The notes below the pieces were generated by a model. It saw only the letters and a program-made list of their open reading frames with translations. It did not search any database and was not told the origin of the DNA. Position numbers and translations under genes: made by a program. A stretch of 64,000 nucleotides of DNA from Kalmusia sp. IMI 367209 (Eukaryota; Ascomycota; Dothideomycetes; Pleosporales; Didymosphaeriaceae): NCBI GenBank assembly GCA_027946365.1, contig JAPEUQ010000018.1, positions 124,001-188,000 on the forward strand, read 5' to 3'. Position 1 is the first letter of the stretch; every line of letters begins with the position of its first letter. Shown piece after piece: positions 25,567-39,312 of the stretch.

Positions 25567-26836
25567 TTATCTCCCTTTGCTGATGGCACCTGGATTATGT
25601 AACACCGTCTCGTTGATGATGAATCGATGTTTCTCGCTCTCGTCTATGATGGTATTCTTCCCATCTGGTACGACCGGTCCTATCGATTCACCTGTTAGAT
25701 CTACGACTTTGCACCAGCAAGTATACGGCTAAGGTGGCATGTCTTACCGTATTTCGGATGAACAAGCACTCCGGGTTTGAATGGGTCCACTCGGTTTTTC
25801 TTCATACCGTCCATCAAAAGACTCCAATTTATACACTCGTGCGGCGAATCGCGGTTCCCCAAAGGGAACTGATTCTCATCGACCCAGTGGAGTGTCTCAG
25901 GGTTGGTGTCGGCTTTACACATGATGGCTTTGAGGATCATTTGTAGGCAGTGTACTGCAAACATCTCTGCAATCAGTCATTTTTTTGAAAGGGCTCAGAT
26001 AGGCTACTTGCAATTATGTTCTTGTAGGTTAACACGATCTTGCTCCGTCGTGTTCGGATAGTATCGATCAGGCCAGTACGAATGGTGGATGCGTTTCTGC
26101 TCCTTGTAAGCAGCCGTTTTTAGTACTGGTGGCGGGTATGAGGTATTACCAAACAGTGCAACTGATGCATAAAAGAGTATATAGCAAGGAAGCCGCCACC
26201 TTCTGAAGGTATGGCTTCATCAAGTCGTCCGACGCTCTCGACGTACGAATATGGCACTTCGGTATAGAAGTCTTGCCTAATCCAGCGGGTAAAGCGTTAG
26301 TGTAAGTTACAAACTGAGGAGCCGGTACCATGTGTATGTCTCAATTGAGCGAAAAACATGTACGTTCCGACCTAAGAACATCTACTTTGTATTTAAACCT
26401 TACATACATGAGATCCGCCCATGCGGCGTCGAGCTTGTCGCTTGGATGACCCATCAGCTCATAGTCCTCGGATGAGTGGCCAATGTCCATGTGTGTAGGC
26501 TCGTAATGAACGAAGTTTCGGAGTGGTGCTGGATCGGTCAGTATTCTTCCTGTATAACTATTTGTATCAAAGTGTCGAATTACTGTCAACGACTTCTGCG
26601 CCATGTAGCCTTTCTCTCTTCCACCACCATGATGTGACCGTTACAAGAGCTACCGAGTAGATAGTGGTGAGAACGAGGACTACTAAGGCGATCACGAGTC
26701 GAAATTTCAAGTAATAATTCGGGCGTAGTTTCCAAAGTACTGGAATGCGTTGGTTGATCAGTTCGTCGTGTTCAGACGACTGAGATATTTCATCGTCTGG
26801 CACTGGGCTGTACTCTTCATACTTTGACTTCTCCAT
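25567..26836 (-). CDS. UstYa-family (DUF3328) protein A of the peptide locus
   Basis: The model is complement(join(25567..25691,25748..25954,26012..26096,26150..26276,26408..26528,26584..26836)), 305 residues. Five introns restore frame exactly; the fourth, in gene order, uses a GC-AG pair (donor GCAAGT). A single membrane helix (FRLVIALVVLVLTTIYSVAL, about residues 46-66) follows a short acidic cytosolic tail. Two HxxHC motifs typical of the family are present: HQLHC at 162-166 and HNLHC at 194-198. GHPSDKLDAAW and IMCKAD...LHWVD...ECINW are also family-like. UstYa proteins catalyse oxidative crosslinking of ribosomal peptides in ustiloxin, phomopsin and asperipin pathways. It is transcribed away from the precursor gene's 3' end. 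Confidence 0.88.
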
Positions 26837-27388
26837 TTCAAAGTTCGTGAAAAGATATGAAACACAGTTATGGCAGAATCAACGAAGATTACGGACTTTC
26901 GGATACTGCGAGGAGCATTCGCAGTGCGGGGTGTGTCTCCCAGGTCTAGCTGTTTACGTGCCGGGTAAGCGCAGAGTCTCGCTAATGTTCTCACTTGGTT
27001 CGTGAAGACTTTGAAAGTGGGGAACCTGATAAGATAAAATCCCTACGACCCAACGCGTCATCGAACTAGGATAGCAAGGAGCTTACAAGTGCATGCTCTT
27101 CTCTGCAACCCTAGCATGCCGGTAGTTTACTGTACTCGGCGACTCTAGTCTGAAGTGTGTAAGATCATTCAGGATGGTGCCATGCTCTCTTTTCTCTGAT
27201 ATGCATGCATTAGCGCTTCGCTTAGAGTAGCTTACATTCTGCCAAGTGAATACCAGCTTGTTGTGGGATAAAGGTTCTGCAAACTATTACCATGTTTGAT
27301 ATCAGTAACGGCTACCTCCAGAGTATTTGATTGTAGAATTGGACCTGCTAGATGGGGTTTGGTGGATCTGCAGCGACGATTCAAAGGC
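26837..27388. other. Intergenic, upstream of UstYa gene A
   Basis: Putative promoter of UstYa gene A. No gene recognised. Confidence 0.4.
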
Positions 27389-27718
27389 ATGAATATCGGG
27401 AGGAGTGAGGTTGCGGGTACTACCTCGGTCGTATACACCTTGTTCTACGATCAATATGCCTCCCGTAGGATTGAAATCGCCACCACCGCGACGCGGGATG
27501 TCACGTATGAGCCAGTAATATCCGGAGAAGAAAGCTATGGGTCGTTCTTTTTACCCCTTTATAGTCCGGCCCCTCCGAAAGAGGTCATGCGAAGTGCTTA
27601 TGGTAAATTCCGCAAACCCGTCATCCATTCCAATTCATATTGCATCAAACTCTCTGGCCTAGGAGAAGAGGTAGAAAACGGATTCACCGACCGAAGCACT
27701 CTTGAAGATCATGCATAG
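27389..27718 (+). CDS. Orphan open frame inside the peptide locus
   Basis: An uninterrupted 109-codon frame from an ATG at 27389 (open further upstream without an ATG). No signal peptide, domain or splice site is visible. The predicted sequence has a plausible protein-like composition (for example VISGEESYGSFFLPLYSP) but I recognise nothing in it. It sits between UstYa gene A and the 3' end of the precursor, on the opposite strand to both. It may be spurious. Confidence 0.2.
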   Translation: MNIGRSEVAGTTSVVYTLFYDQYASRRIEIATTATRDVTYEPVISGEESYGSFFLPLYSPAPPKEVMRSAYGKFRKPVIHSNSYCIKLSGLGEEVENGFTDRSTLEDHA

Positions 27719-27904
27719 ATTGAAAACGAGCGACAGTCATCATTCATTGTTACAAAAAATCAGGTTACTACCCATCTTGCTTATCCTATTCAAATTCCCC
27801 CCCACCGCTCCAACTACCTTCGCCCCCACTACCCCTCTTTTCGCGCTAACGAAACCCAACCAATAATCTGCCTATAAATTCCAGTCTATAGCCATCCAAG
27901 ATAC

Positions 27905-28437
27905 TCAGGCACGCTTGGTCCAGATGTTGTCTGCATCGACCTCAGCCTCGCGAGTCCAAATGTTATCGGCGTCAATTTCAGCATTGCGAGTCCAAATGTT
28001 GTCAGCATCGACCTCGGCGTCGCGAGTCCAGATGTTATCAGCATCTACCTCAGGATTTCGCTTGGTCCAGATGTTGTCAGCGTCCACCTCAGCCTCGCGG
28101 GTCCAGATATTGTCAGCGTCCACCTCGCGAGTCCAAATGTTATCGGCGTCAACTTCAGCATCGCGAGTCCAGATATTGTCCGCATCAACTTCAGGAACTC
28201 GCTTAGTCCAGATATTGTCAGCGTCTACCTCGCGCTTGGTCCAGATGTTGTCGGCATCGACCTTTGCAACAGGGGTGCGAGTCCAGATGTTATCAGCATC
28301 CACGGCAGCACCGCGCTTGGCTCCTAGCGAATATGAGATTTCGAAGTATTGAGAGATATTAAAACTAACATACCAGAGGGAGTGGGAGCAGCCTGAGCTC
28401 CGATGAGAAGAAGAGGGGCAAGAACTTTGAATTGCAT
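27905..28437 (-). CDS. Repeat-type secreted peptide precursor (candidate ribosomal-peptide precursor)
   Basis: The model is complement(join(27905..28323,28374..28437)), 160 residues, with a 50-nt GT-AG intron. Residues 1-17 form a clear signal peptide (MQFKVLAPLLLIGAQAA), followed by a short pro-segment ending AKR. The remaining 135 residues are 11 tandem units of 10-15 residues, each with an invariant DADNIWT followed by KR (4 copies) or R (7 copies). This is the layout of fungal precursors processed by the Golgi protease Kex2, such as UstA, PhomA and alpha-factor. Flanking UstYa genes favour a crosslinked ribosomal peptide. There is no Tyr or Phe in the repeats; Trp is the only aromatic residue. 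A non-crosslinked signalling peptide remains an alternative. Confidence 0.85.
27911..28312 (-). repeat. Eleven tandem core-peptide repeats
   Basis: Eleven units of 30-45 bp encode [spacer]-V/I-DADNIWT-(K)R. Codons vary freely at third positions (GAT/GAC, AAC/AAT, ATC/ATT, four Ala codons) while the seven core residues never change. Spacers before the core read GAA, TPVAK, E, VPE, DAE, E, EAE, NPE, DAE, NAE and EAE. Confidence 0.95.
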
Positions 28438-29407
28438 GGTGCTGGTCTTTCCGAAAGAGCTTAAAATTGATAGTGCAAGGCTCAACGTAGTGGAGTTATC
28501 GTGAGTAGATGGTATGAGATATTTGTTCACATGGGAAGTCCTTCCGTAAGTTATACCTCACTAGCGAAGACCGTCATGAAGCGGGGCTGGATCTAGTGTG
28601 CACTTTTGGACATGGTGCGAAAGAGCGGCAGCATGGGGAGAAGGACTTGCCAGGGTCCTTGCTCGCGATGCATCGAATGAGGGTAGTCTTTACAACTTGC
28701 CTTCTCATCCTTTTCGTAGTGGCCAAGCCGTCAATCATCCCGCTTCCTCCACGTCTCAGTGGTGCTAGAGTCATTTTCCATACTTTCGTCATGAGCTTGC
28801 TGTCAAACGACCTTCTCTCGAGAGGGACCTGCCCTTTCAAGTTACCCGAGCGTGATAAGCTGTGAACTTCATCGGTATTCTCCTTCCCTTGTAATGCTCG
28901 AGAGCATATCTTGAGCTTGATTGTTCCTTGCCAAAATCATGACTTGCTTGCAAGAAATGGGGCCACAAGCAGAATAAGTTTAGTGAGTAGACGATGGCGG
29001 GACGAAATCGCTAGTTTACTCAAAGTGGTGTACCCTTCGAACTTCTAGCGTTGGGCTCCAACTGTGAATGAGACCGGAGTCTTACGTGCTTAGATGCACT
29101 CTTCCTTTGTAATCCGCCAAAGGAATACACCTGTACATATATCCTCGGCTGCTAGTGACGCTTGATGTAGTAAATGCCAAGCATTAGAGTAGACCTGCCT
29201 CTTTTGTAGAATACCGCGTCCCTGGTCGTATGCAGACCTGGCTTCACCCATGTAAGCTTAGATTTTACCTACGCTCGGCACCTGGGCACCAAAGCATGGC
29301 CCTGACGTCGAGAAGTCGTGTGAGTTGGTACCCCTCGCAGTCTTCCTTGAATCCTTCACTGTTGTTCTCTAATCGCTCGTCCAGTCCATCTCAACTCTTC
29401 ATCGCAA
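28438..29407. promoter_or_regulatory. Divergent promoter between precursor and UstYa gene B
   Basis: These 970 bp separate the precursor start (minus) from UstYa gene B (plus), so the two could be co-regulated from here. An open frame at 28677-28865 starts with a hydrophobic stretch (MRVVFTTCLLILFVVA) but lacks further support. No specific factor site could be assigned. Confidence 0.4.
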
Positions 29408-30496
29408 ATGGCTATCCTCGAAGAAAAGATCGCATATACGCCAATTTCGGATAGAAGTTCTTCTCAGTCTGAAAGTGATCATCGTGAATCTGATGAGCTG
29501 CTATTCGAAGGCGGCTTTCCAACACTACGACGGAAAAGTCGGTCTTTGAGATCGTACCTCGCTCTCGTAACTGGAGCCATTATTTTTCTCGTCCCATATA
29601 CCTTGATCACTGTCAAATTAACTTCAGCATACTGGAAGAAAGAACGCCTTCACGGTGCCTCCGTGATAGACTGTAAGAAGTCCTTATAGTGAGCCGCACA
29701 CAATACCTTACTAACATCTCGCAGCACCATTAAGAGAATACATCCACTATGAGCCTAAGATGTTCAGATTCATGGAGTCCTCGAAAGACTACTCCCTCGT
29801 AGGCATGCCCAGCGACGAACTCGATGCCCGCTGGTCGAATATCATGCAATACTTCTTTACCGAGGTGCCATACGACTACATGAAGAACCTCGGTCGTCTG
29901 GACGAGGGCTTACAGTTGCCGAATGGGAACTACGTTGCCAACTATGCGTTTATGCATCAGTTGCATTGCCTCAAGAGGATATATACGGGATATTTCCCGG
30001 AGAGGTATTTCCCAAATATGACGGAGCATGAGAAGGAGCTGCAGCTGGAGCACAATTGTATGCCACATTTCCGTCACGTGATTTCATTCAAATTACTAAT
30101 CTCGATGAAAAAGTACACTGCTTAGAGATGGTCATTGAGGGTGTAATGTGCAAAGCCGACGAAACACCGCTCACGCTTCGCTGGCTGGACAACACGCCCC
30201 TTCCCACGGGCAACCGTAGTATTGCACACGAGTGCGTGAACTGGGATCGGATTACAGAGGGTCTGGAGAAGTATAAAGTGGATCCATTCGTGCCAGGCGT
30301 CTTTATACATCCCAAATTTGGTCAGTGTTGAATTAGTCCTCAAGCTGGATGGTATATACTAATATTTATAGGTGCTGTTGTTCCGAACGGTAAAAACACA
30401 GTTATCGAGAATCGGATTGGCTATACACCTGGAGCAAAGAAGTTAGACTACGACAAGTTCCCTACTCATGCGACACATAAGCCCGGCGATGAATAG
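29408..30496 (+). CDS. UstYa-family (DUF3328) protein B of the peptide locus
   Basis: The model is join(29408..29672,29725..30057,30114..30320,30372..30496), 309 residues, with three GT-AG introns of 51-56 nt. A membrane helix (YLALVTGAIIFLVPYTLITV) follows an acidic N-terminal tail. Two HxxHC motifs are present: HQLHC at 166-170 and HNLHC at 198-202. Other shared segments are KKERLHGASVID, GMPSDELDARW, TEVPYDYM and VVPNGKNTVIE. All three introns match positions in UstYa gene A, and the last two exons have identical lengths (207 and 125 nt), so A and B are duplicates. It is predicted to act as an oxidase on the repeat peptide, as UstYa/UstYb pairs do in ustiloxin biosynthesis. Confidence 0.88.
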
Positions 30497-36237: not shown

Positions 36238-37320
36238 TCAGACTTGTTTAGCCTCTGCAGCCTTCTTAGGCTGTTCAGAATTCGGGGCCGACTCAACGGT
36301 ACCCTTCGCGATGTGTGCGCGAAGGTCCTTGCCTACAAGTGTCTTGTACTCGCCCACGGGCAGGTCCTTCGTAGCCTCACGCTTGGCTTCATTCTCGCGT
36401 CGAAGCTCAAGGTCGCCACCCTTGACGAAAGCCGCGTAGTTGCCCCAAGCGCCAAGGGCAGCGCAACCAGGCTTTTGAACTGGTCGATCGTCGGTCGATT
36501 CGGCCTTCTTGTGGTGGACTGAAGGGCCCTGGGTGGGCTGCTTCGAATACTTGACATTTGGACCGCGCTGGCTCTGCTGCTGGACTTGAAAGCTGCCCGA
36601 CTTGTTGGCAAAACCAGGTCGGTTACCCTGCGGAGTGCGATTGTTGTACGACTTCTGGGCAGGGGCGTGTTGGTTACCCTGCTGAGGGCGGTTGTTGTAT
36701 GGAACGTTGGAGCGATTGCGGTTAGAGCTGAAGCCGTTGAAGCCGTTCTGGCTGGCGTTGAAGGCCTTGGAGCCGTTCTGATGGGAGTTGAAACTCTTGG
36801 AGCCATTCTGGTTCGAGTTGAACGCCTTGGAGCGGTTTTGGTTCGAGCCGACGCCTTTGAAGCCGTGCTGATTGGGGTTGAAGGCTTTGGGGCCGTTCTG
36901 ATTAAGAGTGGTAGTCTTGAAGCCGCTCTGGTTTGGGTTGAAGGCCTTGAAGCCGTTCTGATGAGAGGTGAAACCCTTGGAGCCGTTCTTGTTCAAGTCG
37001 AAAGCCTTAGGGCTGTTTTGGTTCGAGTTGACACCCTGGAAGCCAGCACGATTGCCGCTGGAAGCCACAGCGCCGCTGTGACTCACCTTTGAAATGGGCG
37101 GGCTGTTGGGGGTGTTGTCTGAAGTCTGCGAGCTATCGTGGCTATCCTTGGAGCCCGATGAGCTCCTGTGATGGGGAGCAGAGGAGGTGGATGACTCGCT
37201 CTTGGTCTCGAGAGGAGCCGCACGCTCGACTTGGGGAGTAGTGACAGCCATAACTTGGTTCATGGTGTTTTCAGTCTTATGTATTGAAAGTTTGTGGATC
37301 AGGAGAATTTGTGTGAGCAA
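36238..37320 (-). CDS. Asn/Gln-rich protein with tandem decapeptide repeats
   Basis: Single exon of 360 residues; the second Met (37263) is an alternative start. The Ser-rich N-terminus is followed by about ten tandem decapeptides from residue 98 with consensus N-x-N-Q-N-G-x-K-A-F. A Gln/Asn/Arg-rich stretch comes next, and then a more ordered, charged C-terminus (GCAALGAWGNYAAFVKGG, LELRRENEAKREATKDLPVG, GKDLRAHIAKGTVES). No signal peptide or membrane segment. The repeats are low-complexity and intrinsically disordered. The C-terminal part looks like a conserved helical module, so this may be an RNA-associated or stress-granule-type protein, but that is only inference. I do not recognise the family. 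Confidence 0.6.
   Translation of the reverse strand: MLTQILLIHKLSIHKTENTMNQVMAVTTPQVERAAPLETKSESSTSSAPHHRSSSGSKDSHDSSQTSDNTPNSPPISKVSHSGAVASSGNRAGFQGVNSNQNSPKAFDLNKNGSKGFTSHQNGFKAFNPNQSGFKTTTLNQNGPKAFNPNQHGFKGVGSNQNRSKAFNSNQNGSKSFNSHQNGSKAFNASQNGFNGFSSNRNRSNVPYNNRPQQGNQHAPAQKSYNNRTPQGNRPGFANKSGSFQVQQQSQRGPNVKYSKQPTQGPSVHHKKAESTDDRPVQKPGCAALGAWGNYAAFVKGGDLELRRENEAKREATKDLPVGEYKTLVGKDLRAHIAKGTVESAPNSEQPKKAAEAKQV
36730..37029 (-). repeat. Ten tandem 30-bp repeats encoding decapeptides
   Basis: Ten units in register encode variants of NxNQNGxKAF, including NPNQSGFKTT, NPNQHGFKGV and NSHQNGSKAF. Units are diverged rather than identical, so the array is not a recent expansion. Confidence 0.85.
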
Positions 37321-39312
37321 GTGAGCAAAGCGGAAGAGTATGGAGAAAAGGTCGCAAGGGCAGCGGAGAGATAGTTATATAGTATTTAGGCGGCAGGCCA
37401 AGCGAGGGTATTGAGGACAATACCACACTTCTCACCGCTGGTCAGTGCTTTCATCGGCGTGGTGACGCGGTTGCGACTCCCAGCCGCCCTGATTATTGTC
37501 CAGGCGGAAGCGCTGATTGGCCCAGCCGTGCGCTCGTGATGGCTCGTTGCTCCGTTGCTCGGCGGTGAAAGAGCACGACCAGAGGAGCACAATAGGCGGC
37601 GGTCCCGCTCGTGCCTAGCAGACAATAGCTAAGCGACTCTATTGTCACTGTGGAGTTGAATAGAGAGGCGCGACTAGTAATTACGAGTAAGGGTATATGG
37701 TACATGTGAAGGTGAGTCTTTATTATATACGTGAATATGGTGCGCGATATCAGCAATCCATGGCTACTATTTGGGGAGGGTGACTCATTCATGATTGAAC
37801 TTCGGTCGGGTGGGATTGGCTGAAACGCTCAACTCTATGTTTCTTAGTTCTGCTTTGCTAGAACCACGGGTTGCTAGTCGATTGACTCAATAGCCAAGAA
37901 TCTTGTAGAACTGTGAAGGAACTCGCATAACACCTCCAATCAATACTGTTAGCAATAGCTTGTTCTTTTCCGACACGCGAATAGGTGATCATGCACAAGT
38001 GGTGCCGCTAATTTGGGTGGTTTGCTCTCTTCGGATGAGTCAAACGCTTTCACCGGAAGGGCGATGCATGTGGCATGTCCACGAGGGGCCTGGGGGCGCT
38101 CGTGTTGTATAGATCCTGTTGTAAGAACGCGCCTTGTGGTAGCTTCTAAACAACAAATGCGAGGAGCAATTCAAGGAATCCCGATCGCGGCTCTGGCGCT
38201 GCAGCCTCTAGAATTCCCATCTGGTCTTGCTCTAGCGATACGCGGCTTGCGTGTAAGACGCATCAGGATCGCTCTTTCCTCCCCGTGGCCTTGGCGGCTC
38301 GCATGGTCGTTGCCTCCGTGCCCCGATTTTAACATGTCTTGTGCGGTCTTGTAAGCCATCATACCACATCTTCATTCGTAACCATCAAATCGTGCTTCTT
38401 CTTACTGCTCATACGTCGTCTCTTTCGCCCGGAGTCTGGCTGCTCGCCCTCGTCCAGCAGATGCTTCCAAACTCAGCCATCGGCCGCCATCTTCATACAC
38501 GTCAGTGACAGCACTCGCGCCAGCTCGCCATGCCGTTCAATGCGGTGACCTGCTTGATCAGTGGTATTAGGGCTATGCGAACACATCCATTCGTTCGAGG
38601 GTTGCTGTCGTGTTGCTTGACGTCCAACGCCCGCCCAACAGGCGTCGTCGCTTACACGCTAGGCCGAAACCCCCACTGGCTCCGTCCCAATGAATCATGG
38701 GTAAACACCAAGCCCTCCTAATGATCCTTCCACGTATCTCAGCGACCTTGTCGAACTGCCGGAACGCCATTCTCTTGTCAATAGTTTCCATGTGAGTTGT
38801 TCTATCGAACCCTCGAGGTAGCGACAAGTAGATGCAAACATGCGGCACGGCGGTGCAATGCTTCATGTAACCAATGATCCGTCTCTTTTTGACCAAAGCA
38901 CTCTTCCTGGGCGTGGGAGCAATAGAATGTGCGTCTACCAGAACTCCGGAACGTCCCTGCAGTTAATCTACCATGTCTATCCGGGCAGATGGCGAGGCTT
39001 TTGCCTCCGCTCAAGCTTCAGAATACACCTGTCTTCGCTCTGATCCTTCCCCACATCCAACTTGGATAGAGTGCCAAGTCCTCTCCGCCTGACAACCTTT
39101 TAGCACCTCCCATTTGTGGGGTCCCCGCATGTGCGCTCTCTTTGGCGACGCAGGCGACTTGGCAGGGCGTTCGGCAGATGGCTAAATGGACTCCCTATCA
39201 ACTGGTCTGGGCGCAGATGATCCTGGCTGATCGTCGTTCTTAAAGAAGGTAGCTTCCGCGAAACATTGCATCCTCGTGTGCTGCTTCGACTTTGATTTCA
39301 CCCTCGGACACA
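37321..39312. other. Long intergenic stretch, no supported gene
   Basis: Two kilobases between the repeat protein and the sugar permease. Several 60-113-codon frames occur on both strands but none has domain signals or convincing splice sites. Unannotated short genes cannot be excluded. Confidence 0.35.

Follow-up and report, generated by a model that had tools for sequence, protein, structure and literature searches.

A 64,000-nucleotide stretch of the Kalmusia sp. IMI 367209 genome (contig JAPEUQ010000018.1, positions 124,001 to 188,000; hereafter the window) carries, at window positions 25567..30496, three adjacent genes that we judge, with a probability of roughly 80%, to form a minimal UstYa-dependent locus for a dikaritin-like ribosomally synthesized and post-translationally modified peptide (RiPP). 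The source strain, listed in PMC10027605 as cf. Kalmusia sp., is an endophyte of the Pleosporales (Didymosphaeriaceae). A precursor gene, P, is predicted to supply a repeated core that is free of tyrosine and contains tryptophan, and two flanking genes of the UstYa (DUF3328) family, A and B, would encode the proteins that oxidize this core. An earlier reading made from the letters of the window (hereafter the sequence-only reading) had proposed a UstYa-dependent ribosomal-peptide pathway with neither a tyrosinase nor an obvious dedicated peptidase nearby, and this is well supported as the best interpretation of the locus. Its description of 11 DADNIWT repeats between two UstYa/DUF3328 genes is borne out by spliced gene models, a repeat count, and PF11807 matches. 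Its outer bounds prove exact: the stop codons of A (minus strand) and B (plus strand) have their outer ends at 25567 and 30496, respectively.

The models of A, P, and B were assembled manually on the basis of splice sites and homology, and all introns but one have GT-AG boundaries. Gene A (25567..26836, minus strand) encodes a PF11807 protein of 312 amino acids in six exons (26836-26584, 26549-26408, 26276-26150, 26096-26012, 25954-25748, and 25691-25567). Gene P (27905..28437, minus strand) encodes 160 amino acids in two exons separated by a 50-bp intron, the first (28437-28374) specifying the putative signal-peptide part and the second (28323-27905) all 11 cores. The core array itself, in which each DADNIWT lies within an (E)[V/I]DADNIWT unit, was delimited to 27917..28300 on the minus strand by a pattern count and a tandem-repeat scan. 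Gene B (29408..30496, plus strand) is divergent from P and encodes a PF11807 protein of 309 amino acids in four exons (29408-29672, 29725-30057, 30114-30320, and 30372-30496). The 970-bp region between P and B (28438..29407) is a possible shared promoter. The exceptional intron, number 4 of gene A (25955-26011), has a GC-AG boundary with a GCAAGT donor, and this may be one reason for the missing annotation of A. The locus was probably overlooked in annotation altogether, because the database searches gave no near-identical protein of comparable length for A or B, yet did give a UstYa protein from the same assembly (P0003, N0V90_009890).

The repeat unit of P is wider than the sequence-only reading had it. 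A V or I precedes the core in 11 of 11 copies, and the residue before that is E in nine units, A in one, and K in one, such that the unit mostly reads EVDADNIWT. Across the 55 pairs of copies, the seven core codons give uncorrected proportions of synonymous (pS) and nonsynonymous (pN) differences of 0.848 and 0.000, respectively, and the core peptide is therefore kept by strong selection rather than by recent copying. P begins with a single hydrophobic segment (residues 2-17 by hydropathy) that is a putative signal. Tyr is absent from all 160 amino acids, and Trp is the sole aromatic residue of the core.

The sequences around the cores indicate how the product might be released. On the C-terminal side, four of the 11 cores end in KR and seven in a single Arg. 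When the residue before V/I is counted with the core, two of the N-terminal spacers are empty and the nine others are built wholly from dipeptides of the X-Ala or X-Pro form (GA, TP-VA, VP, DA, EA, NP, DA, NA, and EA), which correspond to the motif recognized by Ste13 as described in PMC6339444. The first residue of these dipeptides varies (G, T, V, D, E, or N) and the second is always A or P, in copies that are related to one another; six of the nine spacers come after a single Arg instead of KR. Because the non-empty spacers parse as Ste13-substrate dipeptides, the product unit is likely to be (E)VDADNIWT. The computed [M+H]+ of the unmodified linear peptide is 1062.474 for EVDADNIWT and 1076.490 for EIDADNIWT, which is found in one unit. 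The earlier description of the repeats as Kex2-type fits the four cores followed by KR but not the seven followed by a single Arg, and the spacers look suited to Ste13-type trimming. Elsewhere in the genome, which for this and all other genome-wide counts is a 30-contig, 42.78-Mb assembly, we found one match to a Kex2-type P-domain and three matches to DPPIV_N, two of them full-length and one partial.

Kex2 can cut some single-Arg sites, as in killer-toxin precursors. If cleavage of P were instead restricted to the KR sites after four of its cores, the products would be segments of 2, 1, 4, and 4 cores, perhaps serving as acidic metal-binding or surface peptides. We consider this outcome unlikely, given that each single Arg is followed by exact X-A-E or E units (with one TP-VA-K), as expected if the chain is cut there, and that a related precursor on another contig (see below) has KR or KK after each of its five internal cores.

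The proteins encoded by A and B match PF11807 at 132.5 and 134.5 bits, respectively (curated cut-off 25), match no other Pfam family, and are 47% identical over 268 columns. Hydropathy and a motif scan confirm that each has one membrane helix and two HxxHC motifs, as had been claimed. These motifs, which occur as the variants HQLHC and HNLHC, begin at residues 169 and 201 of A and at residues 166 and 198 of B, and the single hydrophobic segment of A spans residues ~41-72. Among 49 database UstYa proteins, 35 were used in an alignment and 36 in a tree. In the 37-row alignment, B positions H166, H169, C170, and H198 are invariant and H201 and C202 are conserved in at least 90% of rows; a third conserved stretch, HECxNW, includes the invariant positions H238 and C240. 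According to the account in PMC12435403, the two HxxHC motifs hold two copper ions in CctR, a copper-dependent DUF3328 enzyme that serves as the cyclochlorotine hydroxylase, and DUF3328 proteins are implicated in halogenation, hydroxylation, macrocyclization, and isomerization. An AlphaFold model of the Clathrospora ortholog of B (mean predicted local distance difference test score 72.4) has a long helix at residues 43-77 and further helices at 165-180 and 191-215, within which both HxxHC motifs fall (168-172 and 200-204 by alignment columns). This modeled placement is in line with the description of CctR. A PDB fold search with the model was uninformative, as none of its 77 matches reached E ≤ 0.001, and a PDB sequence search gave no match at E ≤ 1.

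A paralogous pair on contig C3 of the same genome speaks for the linkage of precursor and UstYa genes. P0003 maps to C3:1208287-1209346 with 91-97% identity per exon stretch, the stretches overrunning the exon edges. Apart from itself, its strongest genomic matches are B (1.2e-48, 63%) and A (2.4e-26, 55%), and the next locus follows at 7.3e-14 and 34%. Within L048:4285-6682 (G000:C3), the P0003 gene is divergent from, and 878 bp apart from, a gene for a 136-amino-acid precursor with six cores of the form DSDD[V/I]WLW or DADDIWLW. This precursor and P have in common an MQFKxLA start, an intron just past the signal-like part, and a D-[AS]-D-[DN]-[IV]-W core, and both loci show the divergent UstYa/precursor arrangement. 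However, the C3 locus has one UstYa gene found rather than two, its cores contain two Trp residues each, KR or KK comes after all five of its internal cores, and Ste13-type spacers are absent. The P/B intergenic region and its counterpart between P0003 and the C3 precursor have no word of at least 10 bases in common.

When the whole genome was searched with a DNA pattern encoding D-x-D-[DN]-[IV]-W, in which Val was represented by its codons other than GTG, 26 sites were returned, 17 of which lie in two arrays (11 in the window and 6 on C3). The other nine stand singly, among them one DADNIW and one DADDIW, and a reversed control pattern gave 16 sites. Given these sequence similarities, the C3 locus suggests an uncharacterized peptide family within the same genome. 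A core family of this pattern with two loci was not found in the database or the open-licence literature searched.

Repeat precursors recur near other UstYa genes of this fungus. The genome has 102 exon-level PF11807 matches, which merge to ~69 genes in 55 clusters. With 69 merged genes randomly placed, two in a random 5-kb span would have an expectation of ~3e-5, a figure that serves as a guide only because such genes cluster. Twenty of the 55 clusters were inspected at 6.5-10 kb (19 stretches plus the window), with L047-L051 hand-picked for their UstYa arrangement or for P0003. Only UstYa loci were counted, and rows were dropped by eye if they were not Kex2-type (L043 and L044), were copies of the window locus (L001/L002), represented the same gene as L035 (L032), or were antisense frames. 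On this basis, a repeat precursor with basic spacers is present in 9 of the 20 loci, and in 5 of the 14 in the block that was not hand-picked (L033-L046). Loci L033, L035, L040, L042, and L046 have repeat precursors near UstYa genes, and three more such precursors lie in 3.3-3.7-kb stretches (L009, L017, and L031). The X-Ala/X-Pro signature extends beyond P, since the precursors of L033, L040, and L046 bear such runs after basic residues.

Three of the hand-picked loci merit description on their own. L047 (G000:C3:61500-68000) has two divergent UstYa genes either side of a short open reading frame (ORF) with a hydrophobic start, whose PQWYDISYIDK and AQWYGEYFS stretches lie close to KR sites. 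Its layout of three genes resembles that of the window locus and has a Tyr/Trp core. At L049:980-1831, a precursor with ~20 DEDAAKY[S/G]KR units adjoins UstYa genes, and at L051:2481-3221 a precursor with 11 TNIYPGIKYLGDED-type units lies inside a UstYa cluster.

The spacers of P also bring to mind a pheromone- or hormone-like peptide that Kex2, Kex1, and Ste13 would set free in linear and unmodified form, with the UstYa neighbors being coincidental or having another target. All nine non-empty N-terminal spacers are X-A or X-P, which is treated in PMC6339444 as the hallmark of alpha-pheromones. The Pleosporales pheromone core given in that source, PYG[L/M]P[I/V]G, is absent from P, whose core is DADNIWT. 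P, moreover, sits between two UstYa genes, and Ste13-type spacers are missing from the related precursor with which the closest UstYa paralog is paired. The runs of such dipeptides in the UstYa-linked precursors of L033, L040, and L046 make the signature compatible with modification, and annotated mating-factor and pheromone precursors are reported in the survey of PMC7329392 to have no DUF3328 neighbor, with three exceptions. A linear peptide left unmodified is quite improbable. The exact pheromone motif returned no site genome-wide, and a looser pattern returned five single sites and no array. Two of these five, coding words resembling PYGIPLG and PYGLPFG at G000:C10:693410 and G000:C23:3089580, are possible traces of the alpha-pheromone gene.

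In the tree of 38 rows, A falls in a clade of 6 rows (100/100) and B in a clade of 4 rows (100/99). A third, C clade of 16 rows (100/99) includes P0003; its rows are presumably mostly from Xylariales and Sordariales, and Karstenula (Pleosporales) is also among them. B joins the C clade at 84/91, which falls short of the starred level, and flags were raised on some long branches. Beyond this genome, the A and B clades have five named orthologs, every one of them from Pleosporales. The sequences show A and B to be ancient and distinct members of the UstYa family. The Claviceps UstYa proteins P0037-P0040 are 41-43% identical to A and form a well-supported clade of their own.

The sequence-only reading had called for a search for conserved synteny in relatives, and the outcome is mixed. 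Periconia macrospinosa has orthologs of both A (DM02DRAFT_691275) and B (DM02DRAFT_691290), each listed on a contig of 76,074 bases, and this equal contig size supports the linkage, but the precursor was found in no other species.

Several observations weigh against a dedicated UstYa-dependent pathway at this locus. Clathrospora and Pleomassaria yielded a B-clade protein only, and Cucurbitaria and Polyplosphaeria an A-clade protein only, such that A and B were seen together in one of the five named species of both clades, with several of the models being partial (~200 amino acids). No homolog of P was found in the protein database at E ≤ 1 among 2,389 candidates, and the region upstream of A has no word in common with the P/B intergenic region above the level of shuffles. 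Seven of the 11 cores have no dibasic site. Finally, in the account of Le Marquer et al. (PMC6339444), the Ste13 signature in Ascomycota is generally reserved for alpha-pheromones, and the precursors of cyclic toxins and epichloecyclins are without it. The single-Arg/Ste13-type spacers of a UstYa-linked precursor contradict the description given there.

If the UstYa-dependent pathway exists as proposed, P would enter the secretory pathway, where Kex2 would cut behind KR and, with less certainty, behind a single Arg. Kex1 would trim the C-terminal basic residues, and a Ste13-type dipeptidyl aminopeptidase would take off the X-Ala/X-Pro pairs to yield (E)VDADNIWT. A and B, residing in secretory membranes as homo- or heterodimers, would then use copper and O2 to oxidize the core. 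The likeliest site of oxidation would be the Ile-Trp pair, because the core has no Tyr, Trp is its only aromatic residue, and [I/V]-W is conserved between both precursors. The reaction could produce a cross-link from Trp to a side chain, or a hydroxylation or desaturation, and the end product would be a secreted bioactive peptide.

We speculate, with modest confidence, that cross-linking at Ile-Trp is likelier than simple hydroxylation. Desaturation by UstYa-family proteins occurs in phomopsin biosynthesis, and the core has none of the Tyr that is used in Tyr-Ile cross-links. It is conceivable, if somewhat doubtful, that A and B modify the core by hydroxylation or desaturation without cyclizing it, giving a linear modified peptide. 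CctR hydroxylates its substrate, and the roles listed for DUF3328 proteins in PMC12435403 include hydroxylation; however, the UstYa-type proteins beside the ustiloxin, asperipin-2a, and phomopsin precursors are indispensable for cyclization as stated in PMC7329392.

Of the 35 listed ORFs in the window with 140 amino acids or more, a Pfam scan covered 34 (all but P), together with three shorter pieces and the spliced proteins of A and B. The scan revealed no further UstYa, tyrosinase, or dikaritin-type gene, although genes with short exons could escape such a scan. The earlier statement that no tyrosinase, methyltransferase, or dedicated peptidase is nearby stands for the tyrosinase, whose nearest match on the contig (C10:59194-59751) is ~90 kb off. 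It had overlooked two ORFs. One, 3.6 kb right of B, encodes a putative methyltransferase that is weakly HemK/PrmC-like and below curated cut-offs; the other, ~14 kb to the left of A, encodes a C69-family peptidase. Neither of these looks like a pathway gene, and both are apparently unrelated to the locus. Other neighbors in the window include an NmrA-like gene, a GH5 cellulase, a sugar transporter, an amino-acid permease, a leucyl-tRNA synthetase, a helicase, and actin, and several ORFs returned no match. A 378-amino-acid ORF at 36241-37374 (minus strand) carries imperfect 10-residue NGSKGFNSNQ-like repeats, has no Pfam or NCBIfam match, and shows no obvious signal peptide by eye.

Asperipin-type clusters may be without a tyrosinase. 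The window locus differs from those of the dikaritins in its Tyr-free precursor, in that no tyrosinase or recognizable pathway peptidase or methyltransferase was found nearby, and in its mostly single-Arg core ends and Ste13-type dipeptides. It resembles ustiloxin, phomopsin, and the grouped asperipin-2a loci in having a precursor with repeated cores and a secretory-type start beside UstYa/UstYb-type DUF3328 genes and in its predicted Kex2-type release, as these are outlined in PMC9233826. In the strict sense used in that source, a dikaritin has a core Tyr cross-linked to Ile. The earlier assignment to the dikaritin class therefore holds for the linkage of a repeat precursor to UstYa-type genes but not for the strict definition, which P, having no Tyr, does not fit; the locus may well function as a dikaritin pathway does nonetheless. 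Victorin and the epichloecyclins also arise from secreted multi-core precursors and are cyclized via side chains, as the product of P may be, but their links as given in PMC9233826 are Phe-Leu and Tyr-Ile, respectively, whereas Trp is the only aromatic residue available in the window core. A and B resemble CctR in having one membrane helix and two HxxHC motifs (as described for it in PMC12435403), but its substrate is a non-ribosomal cyclic peptide, whereas A and B adjoin a ribosomal precursor.

P further resembles the Kex2-processed repeat proteins (KEPs) of PMC7329392 in having short repeats in a secreted-type precursor. As defined there, a KEP has a signal peptide by SignalP and at least three tandem repeats, each of at least 8 amino acids, between dibasic sites. 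P has 11 repeats but dibasic sites after 4 of 11 cores, and the published filter may handle it poorly. That survey reports DUF3328 neighbors for 22% of 7,878 KEPs, an enrichment of UstYa genes beside repeat precursors, and, for KEPs adjacent to DUF3328 genes, Tyr in 65.6% and Trp in 20.5% of repeated sequences. Given the last two figures, a Tyr-free or Trp-containing core is not new per se. Cores of the DADNIWT and DSDDIW/DDIWLW types had no match in open-licence papers, with supplementary tables outside the search, except for an unrelated barley "VDADN"; "DADN" and "NIW" did not occur in the main texts of the RiPP and KEP papers checked.

If the UstYa-dependent reading is true, a Trp-based, Tyr-free core would be added to the peptides made by UstYa proteins, and the three genes would offer a minimal system in which to determine the bond formed by a UstYa pair. 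The Ste13-type spacers of a UstYa-linked precursor also bear on a question raised in PMC9233826 and PMC7329392, namely whether these RiPPs derive from mating-pheromone precursors. More tentatively, and with the odds against so specific a proposal, the loci in the window and on C3 may both belong to an undescribed family of Tyr-free UstYa peptides with a D-x-D-[DN]-[IV]-W core. In this family, a two-copper UstYa dimer would link Trp to a neighboring side chain, and the DADNIWT member would be matured wholly by the proteases of mating pheromones, Kex2, Kex1, and Ste13. Were this so, the C-clade UstYa orthologs, spread over Xylariales, Sordariales, and Pleosporales, would point to many further precursors of this kind.

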